Assembly (NCBI RefSeq): GCF_035987325.1
Contig: NZ_CP108488.1
Span: 1,488,001 to 1,552,000 of the forward strand
Direction: 5' to 3'
DNA length: 64,000 nt
From: Streptomyces sp. NBC_01244
GTDB lineage: Bacteria > Actinomycetota > Actinomycetes > Streptomycetales > Streptomycetaceae
Both the position numbers and the translations under genes were made by a program. Below the pieces are notes generated by a model. That model was not told the DNA's origin and ran no database searches. It saw only the letters and a list, made by a program, of their open reading frames with translations. The first letter of the stretch is position 1, and each line of letters starts with the position of its first letter. Shown in pieces: positions 53,409-59,085 of the stretch.

Positions 53409-54002
53409 ATGACCTCCCCCCGCTCCACTTATGGCGGCGGTTACTACTCCGCGCCCTCCTTCCCGGACACCCCTATCTACGACTCCCTCGTCGCCGAACG
53501 CGGGACCCCGCAGATCGCCCCGATCCGGGTCCCCGCCGCCTACGACTCGCCGAGTGCCGGCTACTCGAGCGGTGGGTACCTCCCGGCCCTCGCGTCCGCG
53601 CTCCCCGCCCTGCCGGCAGCGCTGCCGCCCGCCCGCCCGCAACAACAGCAGCCGCAGCACGCCCCGGCGTACGGGTACCCGTACCAGCAGCAGGCCGCGC
53701 CGCAGCAGATGCCGCACATGCAACAGATGCAGCAGATGCCGCAGCCCATGTCGATGCCGATGCCGCTCCAGCAGGCGCCGGTGCCGTACGTGCCGCAGCA
53801 GCCGCAGCCGTTCGCGGCCCGCACGGGCTACGCTCCGCAGCCCCAGCCGCAGCAGCCCCGTCCGGTGGCCACGGGCACCGGGTACGAGGCGATGCGCCCG
53901 GCCGCGCCGCGTCCGATGCAGGCGCAGCCCGCGCCCGTGCCGGCCGCCTCGTTCGAGGACCCGTACGGTCGCCCGTACCAGCCGCAGGGGCGCGGCTACT
54001 GA
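53409..54002 (+). CDS. Gln/Pro/Met-rich protein (DUF6643-like)
   Basis: 197 residues from ATG 53409. A conserved N-terminus (TSPRSTYGGGYYSAPSFPDT, PIYDSLVAERGTPQIAPIRV) precedes a long Pro/Gln/Met-rich tail (QQQQPQHAPAYGYPYQQQAA). No membrane helix or catalytic motif. I recall this N-terminus as a streptomycete family (DUF6643); function unknown. A TAACTT-like -10 five bases before the ATG suggests a leaderless or short-leader message. Confidence 0.72.
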   Translation: MTSPRSTYGGGYYSAPSFPDTPIYDSLVAERGTPQIAPIRVPAAYDSPSAGYSSGGYLPALASALPALPAALPPARPQQQQPQHAPAYGYPYQQQAAPQQMPHMQQMQQMPQPMSMPMPLQQAPVPYVPQQPQPFAARTGYAPQPQPQQPRPVATGTGYEAMRPAAPRPMQAQPAPVPAASFEDPYGRPYQPQGRGY

Positions 54003-54074: not shown

Positions 54075-54899
54075 ATGGTGAAACTGCGTGTCCAGGCGCT
54101 CCACGTCCATCCCGTCAAATCGGTGGCGGGGACGGCACCCGACGAGGTGGCCGTGGAGCCCTGGGGTCTGTCCGGCGACCGCCGATGGGCGGTGGTGGAC
54201 GGGGAGGGCGCGGTCATCACCCAACGCCAGCAGCCGAGGCTGGCCTTGGCGCGGGCCCGACCGCTGGGGGGCGGCGGGTTCGAGGTCTCGGCGCCGGGCA
54301 TGGCGGATCTGACGGTGGAGGTCCCGGGGCGGGGTCCGCTGGAGCCGGTCATGCTCTTCGGCAAGAAGATCGAGACCGTGGCGGCGGCGCGAGCGGCCGC
54401 CGACTGGTTCACCGCGTACCTGGGCGTACCCGCGCACCTGGTGCACCTGGACGACCCGGCCGTACGACGGCCGGTGGATCCCCAGTACGCGCTGCCCGGC
54501 GAGACCGTGAGCCTCGCCGACGGCTATCCGCTGCTGATCGCCACCCTTGCCTCGCTGGACGCGCTCAACGCGCTGATCGCCCGGGGTGACCATCCGGACG
54601 AGGGTCCCCTCCCGATGAACCGGTTCCGCCCGAACGTGGTGGTGTCCGGAGGGGAGGCCTGGGCCGAGGACGGCTGGGAGCGCGTCGCGATCGGCGACGC
54701 CGTCTTCCGCGGGGCGCGCGAATGCGGACGCTGTGTCGTGACGACCACCGACCAGACGACGGCACTGCGGGGCAAGGAGCCGCTCCAGACCCTGGCCAAG
54801 CACCGGCGGATCGGGAAGTCCCTGGCCTTCGGGCGGCTGCTGGTGCCGGTGCGGCTGGGGACGCTGCGGGTCGGCGACGAGGTGCACGTCCTGGCGTGA
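54075..54899 (+). CDS. MOSC domain protein
   Basis: 274 residues from ATG 54075. MOSC_N beta-barrel (VQALHVHPVKSVAGTAPDEV, GDRRWAVVDGEGAVITQRQQ) followed by the MOSC domain: FRPNVVVSGGEAWAEDGWER, VAIGDAVFRGARECGRCVVT, TTDQTTALRGKEPLQTLAKH. The conserved Cys in ECGRCVVT is the likely molybdenum ligand. These proteins act in Mo-cofactor sulfuration or in reducing N-hydroxylated or other compounds (mARC-like). Single gene. Confidence 0.88.
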   Translation: MVKLRVQALHVHPVKSVAGTAPDEVAVEPWGLSGDRRWAVVDGEGAVITQRQQPRLALARARPLGGGGFEVSAPGMADLTVEVPGRGPLEPVMLFGKKIETVAAARAAADWFTAYLGVPAHLVHLDDPAVRRPVDPQYALPGETVSLADGYPLLIATLASLDALNALIARGDHPDEGPLPMNRFRPNVVVSGGEAWAEDGWERVAIGDAVFRGARECGRCVVTTTDQTTALRGKEPLQTLAKHRRIGKSLAFGRLLVPVRLGTLRVGDEVHVLA

Positions 54900-54940: not shown

Positions 54941-55184
54941 AGCGTGGATCCTGGCACAGAGCCAACTCCAGGGGGCCGGTGGGACCACCCGGATTGACAC
55001 CTTCGAGGGGCTCTGGCGTCCCCCTGGAACCAACCGCCACCGCCTGCCCGTTGGAGCATTCGGGACGTGAGCACCGGATCGGGTGACACACGTCTCGCGC
55101 GTCCCGGAATGCGGGTGGCCGGGGCATGCGGGAGGCTGGGACGGCAGGCAGGCGCAGACTGGCACAAGTAGGGGGAGCCGGACC

Positions 55185-55796
55185 GTGCGGACAGCAATGG
55201 GAGTGTGGCGCTGGCGGCGCAATCCGCTGCGCCGCCAGACGGATCTATTCGAGGCCTGGGTGGCCTTCGCGGCGCTGCTGTGCGTCCTGTTGGTGGCTCC
55301 GGCCATCGGCTGGGTGGCCGGGGTGCGGGTGGACGGCACGCTGCAGCGGGCCGTGCGCGAACAGCGGGTCGAGCGTCATCTCGTACCGGCGGTGGTGGTC
55401 CGGCCGACACCGGATCCGCTCCCCGGCGCGGCCACCGATCCCGCGGCACAGCGCCAGACCCCGCAGCGCACGCAGATCGTCGCGTCGTGGACGGCTCCCG
55501 ACGGCAGCAGCCACCAGGGCACGGTGCCGGCCGCGGAGGAACCGCCGCGTCCCGGCGACCGGTTCCGGATATGGACCGATACGCACGGTCGCCTGGTCGG
55601 ACAGCCCCTCGACCCGTCCTCCGCCAGTTTCCACGCGGGCATGGCGGGGCTCGCGGCGGCCCTGGGCATGGCCGCGCTGGTGGAGACGCTTCGCCGGCTG
55701 GTCGTACGAAGGCTCATGCATCGGCGGTACATCCGGCTGGACCGCGCGTGGGCCGCGGCGGGACCGGACTGGGGCCGGGCGGGCGCGGGCAGCTGA
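55185..55796 (+). CDS. Rv1733c-like two-helix membrane protein
   Basis: 203 residues from GTG 55185 with a GGGGGAG site. Cytoplasmic Arg-rich start (GVWRWRRNPLRRQTDLFEAW), helix VAFAALLCVLLVAPAIGWVA, an ~85-residue outside domain (VVASWTAPDG-type SASWTAPDGSSHQGTVPAAE, DRFRIWTDTHGRLVGQPLDP), and helix AGMAGLAAALGMAALVETLR. This is the mycobacterial Rv1733c family. Function unknown. The beta-helix/AAA gene follows after ~250 bp on the same strand. Confidence 0.8.
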   Translation: MRTAMGVWRWRRNPLRRQTDLFEAWVAFAALLCVLLVAPAIGWVAGVRVDGTLQRAVREQRVERHLVPAVVVRPTPDPLPGAATDPAAQRQTPQRTQIVASWTAPDGSSHQGTVPAAEEPPRPGDRFRIWTDTHGRLVGQPLDPSSASFHAGMAGLAAALGMAALVETLRRLVVRRLMHRRYIRLDRAWAAAGPDWGRAGAGS

Positions 55797-56045
55797 CCTG
55801 GCAACTCACCGGCCCCGCGCGCGCTACGGTGGAGCGCCGGAGCGGCTGCTCCGATCGGGGCCGTCGAAACGGCCGGTCGATCGAGGTGGACGGTTCGGCG
55901 GCGCGAGCCCCGAACGACGGGGTGCGGGCACGGCGGGAAACTTACACGGCAGCACAGGTACACGGTCGGACACGCGGACGGTTCGGGCCCGCGGACGATC
56001 AGCAGGCGGCTCTACGGAACACGAGGGTGGGGGCACGACAGCACC
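55797..56045. other. intergenic region, no gene seen
   Basis: About 250 bases before the beta-helix/AAA gene. It contains GCGGACGGTTCGGG-like stretches and CGGTCG repeats but no obvious hairpin, ribosome-bound ORF or RNA. Confidence 0.4.
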
Positions 56046-58514
56046 ATGGCTCAGGGCACGGTCCAGGTGACGCACGGCGGTTCCTCGCGGTGGCGTCGCC
56101 GCTCCGGTGATTATCCGACGCTGAGCGCCGCGCTGGCCGCGGCGGGCGACGGCGACGTCCTGTCCATCGCGCCCGGCACCTACCGGGAGAACCTGGTGCT
56201 GCACCACGCCGTGACCCTGCGCGGGCCGGAGGGCTCGCTGGGTTCGGTGCGGATCGCACCGCTCGACGGGGTCGCGCTGACCGTCCGCGCCTCGGCGGTC
56301 ATCCAGGATCTGCACCTGGAGGGCCAGGACCCCACGGCGCCCGCGCTGCTCGTCGAGGACGGCTCCCCCGAGCTCACCGACCTGCGGGTGAGCACCCGCT
56401 CGGCGGCCGGCATCGAGGTCCGCGGGAGCGGCGCCCGACCCCTGGTCCGGCGCTGCACGGTGGAGAACACGGCCGGAATCGGCATCGCCGTACTGGACGG
56501 CGGCGGCGGGGTGTTCGCCGACTGCGAGGTCGTGGCCGCCGGCCAGACCGGGGTCTCCGTGCGCGGCGGCGGCCGCCCCCGGCTGGAGCGCTGCCGGATC
56601 CACCACGCCACGGGCGCCGGCATCGCCGTGACGGGCGACGGCTCGGGCCTGGAGGCGCTGGGCTGCGAGGTCTACGAAATCAAGGGCGCCGGGGTGCAGA
56701 TCGCCGCGCGGGCCACGGCCGTGCTCACCGACTGCGCGGTCCACCGCACCTCCGCCGACGGGGTCACCCTCGACACCGACGCCGTCCTCACGCTCGCCGG
56801 CTGCGACATCCACGACATCCCGGAGAACGCGGTGGACCTGCGCTCGCGCTCCGTGCTCACGCTCAGCCGCACGACCGTCCGCCGCTTCGGCCGCAACGGC
56901 CTGTCCGTGTGGGATCCGGGCACCCGCGTCGTCGCCGACTCCTGCGAGATCCACGACAGCACCGGCGACTATCCGGCCGTCTGGATCAGCGACGGGGCCG
57001 CGGTCTCGCTGGACTCCTGCCGGGTGCACGACGTACCGGACGCCCTGTTCGTGCTGGACCGGGGTTCGCGGGTGGACGTCGTGGACAGCGACATCTCCCA
57101 AGTGCGCAACACCGCCGTCTCGGTGAGCGACGGGGCGACGGCCCAGCTGGACGACTGCCGGATCCGGGAGGCGGCCACGGGGGCCTGGTTCCGCGACCAC
57201 GGCAGCGGCGGCACGCTCGCCAACTGCACCATCGACTCCGTCCAGACCGGCGTCATCGTCACCAAGGGCGCGGATCCCACGCTGGAGCGGTGCACGGTCA
57301 GCTCCCCCGCCGAAGCCGGGTTCTACGTGTCGGCGGGCGGTCGCGGCGCCTTCACGGCGTGCCGGGTCACGGGCAGCGCGGGCTTCGGTTTCCACGTCAT
57401 CGACGGCTGCCGGACCTCCCTGCACCGCTGCCACACCGAGCGGTGCGCGCGCGGGGGCTACGAGTTCGCGGAGGACGGCCCGGTCGCCGAGGACTGCACG
57501 AGCGACGAATCCGGACCGCGCCTCGCCGCCCGGTCCGCCTCCGGCGTGGGCGCCGGCTCGGGTGCGGGGGCGGCGGCCGGGGAGCGTACGGGGATCCGTA
57601 CGGTATCGGCCGCGGCGAGCCCCGTGGCGGCGGGCACGGCCGAGCGGGTACCGGCCCAGCGGCCGGCCGACGAGACGGAAGCCTCGGCGAGCGGGCAGTC
57701 CGCGGTTCGCGGTTCGGTCGAGGTGCTGGGGCACCTCGACGCTCTCGTGGGGCTGGACAGCGTCAAACGCGAGGTCCGTGCGCTGACCGACATGATCGAG
57801 GTGGGCCGGCGCCGGCAACTGGCGGGGCTCAAGGCCGCCTCGGTCCGCCGCCACCTGGTCTTCACCGGCTCCCCCGGCACCGGCAAGACCACCGTGGCCC
57901 GGCTGTACGGGGAGATCCTGGCCTCCCTGGGGGTCCTGGAGCGCGGCCACCTCGTGGAGGTGTCCCGCGTCGACCTGGTCGGCGAGCACATCGGGTCCAC
58001 CGCGATCCGCACCCAGGAGGCCTTCGACCGGGCGCGCGGCGGGGTGCTGTTCATCGACGAGGCGTACGCGCTGGCGCCCGAGGACTCGGGCCGCGACTTC
58101 GGACGCGAGGCGATCGACACGCTGGTGAAGCTGATGGAGGACCACCGGGACGCGGTGGTGGTGATCGTCGCCGGGTACACGGCGGAGATGGACCGCTTCC
58201 TCACCGTGAACCCGGGGGTGGCCTCCCGCTTCTCCCGGACCATCACCTTCGGGGACTACGGGCCCGGGGAACTACTGCGGATCGTGGAACAGCAGGCCGA
58301 GGAGCACGAGTACCTGCTCGGCGAGAAGACCGCCGACGCCCTGCTGACGTACTTCACCGACCTGCCCAAGGGGCCCGCCTTCGGCAACGGCCGCACCGCG
58401 CGCCAGACCTTCGAGTCGATGGTCGAGCGGCACGCGGGGCGGGTCGCGCAGCTGTCGGAGCCGAGCAAGGACGATCTCACCCTGCTCTACCCGGCGGACC
58501 TTCCGGAGCTCTGA
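56046..58514 (+). CDS. right-handed beta-helix fused to CbxX/EccA-type AAA+ ATPase
   Basis: 822 residues. Residues ~20-485 form a pectate-lyase-like beta-helix of ~20 coils, with recurring L-DC-I/V-H and GV-V patterns (RCRIHHATGAGIAVTGDGSG, SCEIHDSTGDYPAVWISDGA) and many Cys at matching coil positions. A ~70-residue Ala/Gly/Ser linker leads to the AAA+ module (~560-822): LVGLDSVKREVRALTDMIEV, Walker A GSPGTGKTTVARLYGE (~608), pore-like EVSRVDLVGEHIGSTAIRTQ, Walker B GVLFIDEAYALA, sensor 1 VIVAGYTAEMDRFLTVNPGV, Arg finger SRFSRT. The AAA part is CbxX/EccA-like, as in type VII secretion and Rubisco activases. The fusion suggests ATP-driven remodelling of a protein bound by the beta-helix. Confidence 0.92.
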   Translation: MAQGTVQVTHGGSSRWRRRSGDYPTLSAALAAAGDGDVLSIAPGTYRENLVLHHAVTLRGPEGSLGSVRIAPLDGVALTVRASAVIQDLHLEGQDPTAPALLVEDGSPELTDLRVSTRSAAGIEVRGSGARPLVRRCTVENTAGIGIAVLDGGGGVFADCEVVAAGQTGVSVRGGGRPRLERCRIHHATGAGIAVTGDGSGLEALGCEVYEIKGAGVQIAARATAVLTDCAVHRTSADGVTLDTDAVLTLAGCDIHDIPENAVDLRSRSVLTLSRTTVRRFGRNGLSVWDPGTRVVADSCEIHDSTGDYPAVWISDGAAVSLDSCRVHDVPDALFVLDRGSRVDVVDSDISQVRNTAVSVSDGATAQLDDCRIREAATGAWFRDHGSGGTLANCTIDSVQTGVIVTKGADPTLERCTVSSPAEAGFYVSAGGRGAFTACRVTGSAGFGFHVIDGCRTSLHRCHTERCARGGYEFAEDGPVAEDCTSDESGPRLAARSASGVGAGSGAGAAAGERTGIRTVSAAASPVAAGTAERVPAQRPADETEASASGQSAVRGSVEVLGHLDALVGLDSVKREVRALTDMIEVGRRRQLAGLKAASVRRHLVFTGSPGTGKTTVARLYGEILASLGVLERGHLVEVSRVDLVGEHIGSTAIRTQEAFDRARGGVLFIDEAYALAPEDSGRDFGREAIDTLVKLMEDHRDAVVVIVAGYTAEMDRFLTVNPGVASRFSRTITFGDYGPGELLRIVEQQAEEHEYLLGEKTADALLTYFTDLPKGPAFGNGRTARQTFESMVERHAGRVAQLSEPSKDDLTLLYPADLPEL

Positions 58515-58563: not shown

Positions 58564-59085
58564 TCACAGGTCCCGGCGCATGCACACCCGGGGCCAGCGG
58601 GCGAGCCCGTGCACGGCCTCGCGGTCGCGGATGTCCCGCAGGCCGGGGCCGAGGCCGCCCTCGTCCAGGGTGCGGAAGCCGCAGCGGGCGTAGTACGGGG
58701 CGTTCCACGGCACGTCGGTGAAGGTCGTCAGGGTGAGCGCGAGGGCGCCCTCCGCGCGGGCCCGCTCCGCGAGGTGTTCCAGCAGGGACCGCCCGATGCG
58801 CCGGTGGGCGCGGTCCGGGTGCACCGACACCTGCTCGACGTGGAGGTTCCCGTCGACGCGGTCGGCGAGGAGGTAGCCGACGGGCGTCCCCGTCCCGGCG
58901 CCCTCGGCCGCGACCCAGGCCAGGCCGGCCCGCCGGTAGCCGTGGAGTTCCTCCAGCGGAAGCGGTTCGTCGTCGGCGATCTCCGGCATGCCGATGGTCC
59001 GGAAGCATTCCCCGGCGGCCCGCTCGATGTCCTGCAGGAGGGCCAGCTCGTCGATGTGCGCTGCTCTGATAAGCATGTACGGCAT
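58564..59085 (-). CDS. GNAT N-acetyltransferase
   Basis: 173 residues from ATG 59085 (or ATG 59076). Acetyl-CoA-binding motif VSVHPDRAHRRIGRSLLEHL and the C-terminal motif TFTDVPWNAPYYARCGFRTL are present. Substrate unknown. It faces the beta-helix gene across ~50 bp. Confidence 0.9.
   Translation of the reverse strand: MPYMLIRAAHIDELALLQDIERAAGECFRTIGMPEIADDEPLPLEELHGYRRAGLAWVAAEGAGTGTPVGYLLADRVDGNLHVEQVSVHPDRAHRRIGRSLLEHLAERARAEGALALTLTTFTDVPWNAPYYARCGFRTLDEGGLGPGLRDIRDREAVHGLARWPRVCMRRDL

Follow-up and report, generated by a model that had tools for sequence, protein, structure and literature searches.

A beta-helix–AAA+ protein of the Streptomycetaceae, a probable cytosolic chaperone of the CbbX/SpoVK/EccA clade acting apart from canonical type VII secretion

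Passages of a 2023 preprint (PMC10659427) define the higher-order AAA+ clade of SpoVK, CbbX and EccA by a GY signature in sensor 1 and assign to members of known job one target each (Rubisco, MurG and substrates of the type VII secretion system, T7SS). They describe SpoVK as having a short N-terminal domain, as activating MurG and as restricted to sporulating Firmicutes, and already name a beta-helix in EccA. A survey of orphan proteins in Streptomyces (PMC13118837), whose retained clusters each show conservation across 75% or more of 929 genomes, lists in cluster 1451 right-handed beta-helix proteins syntenic with cysK; its passages assign this cluster no function and are silent on an AAA+ part and on T7SS. 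Here we describe a gene at positions 56046..58514 (+ strand) of a 64-kb stretch of the Streptomyces sp. NBC_01244 chromosome (positions 1488001-1552000; hereafter, the window), which encodes an 822-residue protein composed of a beta-helix, a linker and an AAA+ module. This architecture has been noted in print and is not a new system. Since the cysK-like gene near the beta-helix–AAA gene is Cds1 (NCBIfam), cluster 1451 is, judging by synteny, very probably the family of this protein; the passages of these two open-licence papers report no experiment on the gene. We consider it probable (roughly 0.6) that the protein works in the cytosol as an AAA+ chaperone of the CbbX/SpoVK/EccA clade with a dedicated partner, within a T7SS-related beta-helix–AAA family whose Streptomycetaceae branch belongs to the core genome and acts apart from canonical T7SS. 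This reading is carried by the architecture, the intact motifs, the family, the lack of linkage to EccC and the retention of the gene in genomes without canonical EccC and EccD.

The preliminary description had proposed a beta-helix of about 20 coils joined to a complete AAA+ module, and the open reading frame (ORF), Pfam and an AlphaFold2 model (57 sequences; mean predicted local distance difference test score, pLDDT, 88.2; predicted template modelling score, pTM, 0.61) bear this out. Pfam identifies Beta_helix (1.3e-45), AAA (3.1e-17) and AAA_lid_6 (3.9e-15), and the PF13229 score of 155.3 bits against a gathering cut-off of 25.9 places the N-terminal part in the beta-helix family, the fold being backed by the model and by a match to AlgE4. 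In the model the right-handed beta-helix spans residues ~20-485 (56103..57500, +), and a hydrophobic pattern with a period of 23 residues over this length gives about 20 coils. A disordered linker (residues 489-551; 57510..57698, +; pLDDT <50) leads to the AAA+ module with its lid (residues 557-822; 57714..58511, +), assigned to the CbbX/SpoVK/EccA clade by Pfam, NCBIfam, AlphaFold2 and Foldseek. The best 50 of 1532 Foldseek matches are all AAA+ proteins, and the closest solved structure for the AAA+ module is CbbX, at ~40% identity; a separate Foldseek look at the beta-helix returned the mannuronan epimerase AlgE4 as the best match and PL6 alginate lyases next, at the fold level and with 10-14% identity. 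The cysteines, described earlier as regular, do form a stack of period 23 from residue 137 onwards, but the first coils lack them: all 16 lie within 137-484, and none is in the AAA part. By reading of the sequence alone, with no signal-peptide program, no hydrophobic segment was seen in the N-terminus (MAQGTVQVTHGGSSRWRRR...), so that no signal peptide is evident, in agreement with the earlier view that there is none.

All ortholog AAA rows (73/73) contain every core motif of the motor, namely GTGKTT (Walker A), DEAY (Walker B), AGY (sensor 1), SRF and GNGR, which excludes an inactive Walker site at the sequence level. In the ortholog alignment (all positions +) they belong to Walker A GSPGTGKTT (residues 608-616; 57867..57893), Walker B LFIDEAYAL (668-676; 58047..58073), sensor 1 IVAGYTAEM (707-715; 58164..58190), which carries the GY signature of PMC10659427, the Arg-finger segment NPGVASRFSRT (722-732; 58209..58241) and sensor 2 FGNGRTARQ (779-787; 58380..58406). 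Thus, the AAA+ motor appears intact and looks alive, consistent with the earlier idea of a single-chain remodeller that would carry its own scaffold. Two marks of the clade are found throughout the orthologs, namely GY in sensor 1 (AGY, 73/73) and the second Arg finger in sensor 2 (GNGR, 73/73; the full FGNGRTARQ in 71). In NPGVASRF, Asn722 stands six positions before R728, although the Arg and the counting meant in the passages of PMC10659427 are ambiguous. Pore loop 1, GEHIGSTAIRT (residues 646-656; 57981..58013), has histidine at the usual aromatic place in 72/73 orthologs and tyrosine in the remaining one, so that all but one of the orthologs lack the Tyr characteristic of CbbX. Other single-AAA beta-helix proteins have Tyr there in at least 31/33 (counted from the five commonest forms). 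For tandem proteins, the residue at this place in the first AAA is Val or Ile in 26/38, Tyr in 7 and His in 2 (3 unread), and in the second it is Tyr in 24/38, Phe in 2 and Trp in 2 (10 unread). In CbbX, this tyrosine is the pore residue that grips the substrate.

Within the clade, the protein stays below all three NCBIfam cut-offs: it scores 266.6 bits against 422.95 for SpoVK (TIGR02881), the best of the three, 246.1 against 466.65 for EccA (TIGR03922) and 230.5 against 459.25 for CbbX (TIGR02880). The AAA part had been likened to EccA, and the scores do not favour EccA over SpoVK or CbbX. The protein shares the AAA+ clade with EccA, and beta-helix–AAA paralogs sit in T7SS loci; EccA1, however, has an N-terminal domain of its own (TPR type), whereas the N-terminal part here is a PF13229 beta-helix (Pfam, model), and no ortholog locus is linked to T7SS genes (0/43 and 0/20). 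CbbX, the red-type Rubisco activase, offers the closest solved AAA+ module, but its chains of ~290-310 residues have no beta-helix and read YIGHTAPKT in place of HIGSTAIRT. SpoVK, the MurG chaperone of Bacillus sporulation, gives the highest NCBIfam score, and one ortholog (P0050) bears its name. The tandem beta-helix–AAA–AAA proteins of actinobacterial T7SS loci likewise have a beta-helix followed by AAA, and their AAA domains are 55-56% identical to that of the 822-residue protein, but they carry two AAA modules and are often T7SS-linked. Plasmid homologs (269 records) are all <60% identical to the protein. A defence system was considered and rejected, the PADLOC matches being weak and confined to the AAA part (best IetA, 1.7e-9).

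The ortholog is present in 36 of 37 genomes of the genus Streptomyces, including its own, at 72-100% identity, and extends beyond the genus to Actinacidiphila (72%) and the Kitasatospora group (58-60%; one record there is labelled Streptomyces). One genome has, in addition to an intact ortholog, fragments of a second, decayed copy with stop codons, ~49-87% identical (G220:C1:249820-251720). In a tree of AAA domains (130 rows, some long rows being unsafe; 14 of the 73 orthologs used; 200 bootstrap trees) the orthologs group together as a single branch (94/99), on which 92% of the bootstrap trees place one change. The tree does not resolve the joining order of the beta-helix subfamilies, and descent from a T7SS-linked ancestor is therefore possible, not proven.

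The relatives of the protein are tied to T7SS, contrary to the earlier suggestion of a new system without such a tie. A paralog in the same genome (locus L067, 8149-11547; G000:C1:297000-316000), of beta-helix–AAA–AAA composition, has beside it a mycosin-like protease, which falls below its NCBIfam cut-off (174.9 vs 278.75), and three proteins that exceed theirs, namely EccB (truncated where the stretch ends), EccD and EccC. With its two AAA modules summed, this paralog passes the cut-offs of SpoVK (529) and EccA (492.2 vs 466.65). We gathered 71 non-orthologous beta-helix–AAA genes, 34 from loci of relatives and 37 from named loci, of which 70 are distinct (L052 and L145 being the same gene); a further AAA gene without a recognised beta-helix (L170) was dropped. 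EccC lies in the fetched flank of 38 of these 70, never more than 8.0 kb from the gene; another 14 have a giant protein of >1600 residues but no EccC, and the remaining 18, some of which lie at contig ends, show neither. By contrast, EccC is near 0/43 distinct ortholog loci, at least six of which have a flank of 1.6-3.5 kb on one side, and the difference (Fisher p 6e-11) is indicative, the rows being related by descent. In a second set, of 20 ortholog loci, EccC is likewise absent (0/20), as it is from the 64-kb window, the nearest EccC of the genome lying ~1.16 Mb away (G000:C1:327373), as expected from the earlier remark that none was nearby. Co-occurrence with T7SS thus holds for the relatives but not for the orthologs. 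The loci gathered here provide a comparison set of T7SS-linked beta-helix chaperones.

Independence from canonical T7SS is further addressed by genomes that lack it. EccC over cut-off was found in 184/199 genomes of the genus, and 14 of the other 15 keep a full-length ortholog (>=1222 bits), the exception being an assembly that is 82% complete (G074); EccD over cut-off was found in none of the 15, with two slight sub-cut-off matches in G117 and G220. Retention of the ortholog in genomes without EccC or EccD over cut-off rules out an obligate partnership with canonical ESX. Several observations nevertheless weigh against a core protein acting apart from T7SS. The ortholog is missing from one good genome (G032), for which the search for MOSC also came back empty, an answer that does not prove absence; the best Cds1 match there is 31% identical, so the segment is either gone or unassembled. 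Hence, unless that region is unassembled, loss of the gene does occur. Each of the 15 genomes that lack EccC over cut-off encodes EccC-like proteins scoring below it, and at 4/4 loci read, such a protein has beside it a WXG100 protein that exceeds the Pfam cut-off. Since these persist, a lesser T7SS-like cassette is a possible customer, and a tie of the ortholog to such a cassette is possible. Finally, the change from Tyr to His in the pore loop might weaken threading.

The main rival is that the protein is an EccA serving T7SS in trans, either for a canonical ESX locus or for the lesser cassette of EccC-like protein and WXG100, which we consider doubtful. It draws on the T7SS linkage of the relatives, on the tandem paralog that passes the EccA and SpoVK cut-offs, on the EccC-like proteins just described and on the canonical ESX locus of the genome (L071; EccB, a subtilase, two WXG100, EccC and EccD), which has no AAA gene of the beta-helix–AAA kind of its own in 19.5 kb. 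The retention of the gene without EccC or EccD over cut-off and the 0/43 orthologs near EccC speak against it, as does a separate protein of the same genome (L068, 8191-10152) that combines the EccA1 N-terminal domain (PF21545) with AAA. At 300 bits this protein is itself below the TIGR03922 cut-off, but, carrying the EccA1 N-terminal domain, it is the better candidate for an EccA in trans. It lies apart from any recognised T7SS gene in a 19-kb stretch, and similar matches occur in most of the genus genomes searched.

Less probable than service to T7SS is that the Rv1733c-like protein encoded upstream (55083..55796, +; NF050032, 198.6 bits), presumed to be membrane-anchored, forms one envelope-linked unit with the beta-helix–AAA protein. 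The adjacency is frequent: Rv1733c lies directly upstream in 34/36 genomes of the genus by family search (of the exceptions, G031 carries its match at another place, and the match in G010 covers just 18 positions) and upstream in 38/43 named loci (gene calls made here, phmmer 1e-8). At the same threshold it was not found upstream in two Streptomyces loci (L113, L122) and three loci of the Kitasatospora group (L125, L126, L128); the latter argue against Rv1733c as an obligate partner. Moreover, Rv1733c-like matches number up to eight per genome, many of them distant from the beta-helix–AAA gene, and two occur in G032, which has no ortholog; among genomes of f3, an order-level family with T7SS-linked relatives of the beta-helix–AAA protein, a match was found in 0/14 searched. 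A promoter-like element, GCTACGGTGG (55823..55832, +), also separates the two genes. Located in the window, it recurs as CTACGGT in 17/18 other orthologs aligned (besides these 18, the alignment included the window itself, with a row that ended before the element; the 29 loci L002-L030 were left out), and this recurrence suggests that the beta-helix–AAA gene may have its own promoter. The partnership proposed in the preliminary description is thus favoured by adjacency and weakened by the five loci without it. Lower still we place the possibility that the beta-helix is or was carbohydrate-active or sugar-binding and that the target of the AAA+ part is an enzyme of the cell wall or of glycans, in the way that passages of PMC10659427 describe for SpoVK and MurG. 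The matches to AlgE4 and PL6 lyases point in this direction, as does a convergent membrane protein of ~850 residues, hydrolase-like by eye, encoded downstream in 16/20 relatives (L032-L047); on the other hand, these matches are at the fold level, and the neighbours counted, in which only part of the conserved ones were identified, include no recognised cell-wall gene.

The orthologs carry marks that set their branch apart, namely the pore-loop His in place of Tyr and a conserved His/Tyr stripe. In the register three positions after the Cys place, six coils present H186, Y210, H233, H256, H303 and H328, with a mean conservation of 0.97; the Cys core of these coils reaches 0.98, and the same register over 15 coils 0.71. 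Among 17 aligned paralogs, His occurs at 186 in four and at 328 in two, and at 233, 256 and 303 it is outside the five commonest letters. The stripe, picked after viewing the alignment and presumed to face outward, is a lead rather than a test, and we regard it as a candidate docking face. At the N-terminus, SRWRRR (residues 14-19; 56085..56102, +; ortholog and paralog alignments) is invariant in 40/40 orthologs, of which the Kitasatospora side contributes 19; in the 17 paralogs only R18 is common (13/17), and W16 occurs in 2/17.

For the proposed chaperone with a dedicated partner, what we infer beyond the data (a ring, its docking, a client, an outcome and a direction of descent) would run as follows. 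By analogy with CbbX and SpoVK, the AAA+ modules would form a ring, each subunit bearing a rigid arm of ~20 beta-helix coils on a flexible tether. The branch-specific residues, together with the role that published work proposes for N-terminal domains in the clade, suggest that the beta-helix might dock one dedicated partner, which ATP-driven motion would then remodel or activate; because no protease is fused, remodelling appears more plausible than degradation. A bolder and rather improbable version combines these elements: in the Streptomycetaceae, a beta-helix chaperone of T7SS type would have left secretion to become a core remodeller of one cytosolic or membrane-associated client, with a pore His and stripe responsive to pH or metal and with SRWRRR anchoring it to the membrane or a polyanion. 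If so, the pore His and the six-coil stripe would tune grip and docking by pH or metal. Most Streptomyces examined have kept a clade member that joins a large self-contained recognition arm to an intact motor, and the identity of its client would reveal what a beta-helix offers an AAA+ motor and perhaps also how a secretion chaperone comes to be reused.

The neighbourhood of the gene is conserved further upstream. Among 20 relatives, the genes preceding the ortholog include DUF6643 in 20, MOSC in 19 and the Rv1733c-like gene in 18; in the window, the DUF6643 protein is encoded at 53409..54002 (+) and the MOSC-domain protein at 54075..54899 (+), both identified by Pfam. Downstream, a GNAT gene (58564-59085) occupies the place of the convergent membrane protein.

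Further observations concern the T7SS-linked relatives. The tandem paralog of the same genome is directly followed by a protein of 860 residues with no NCBIfam family match at 1e-5. In 10/38 tandem paralogs (L069, L070, L079, L083, L088, L140, L141, L155, L160 and L170) the second AAA lacks the Walker A pattern GxxxxGK[ST] and so may be a dead partner module. WXG100 genes noted by eye beside EccC were not counted, two having no Pfam match (L056, L063) and one a sub-threshold score (L057, 24.1 vs 27.3). Giant proteins of ~2200-2740 residues lie near or beside single-AAA beta-helix genes in L053, L054, L056, L061, L084, L086 and L087, which belong to f3 genomes and three Streptomyces; they are not regarded as proven T7SS effectors, since of three tested, one has a sub-threshold T7SS_signal (23.7 bits, cut-off 27) and two have no T7SS match. 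EccC-like proteins of ~1490-1640 residues with a WXG100 neighbour were seen in L072 and L200, L201, L202 and L203; four of these five genomes lack EccD over cut-off, and the fifth, that of Streptomyces sp. NBC_01244 itself (G000, L072), has EccD elsewhere. In L065 (9083-10924), a gene consisting of a beta-helix only is divergent to the neighbouring beta-helix–AAA gene.
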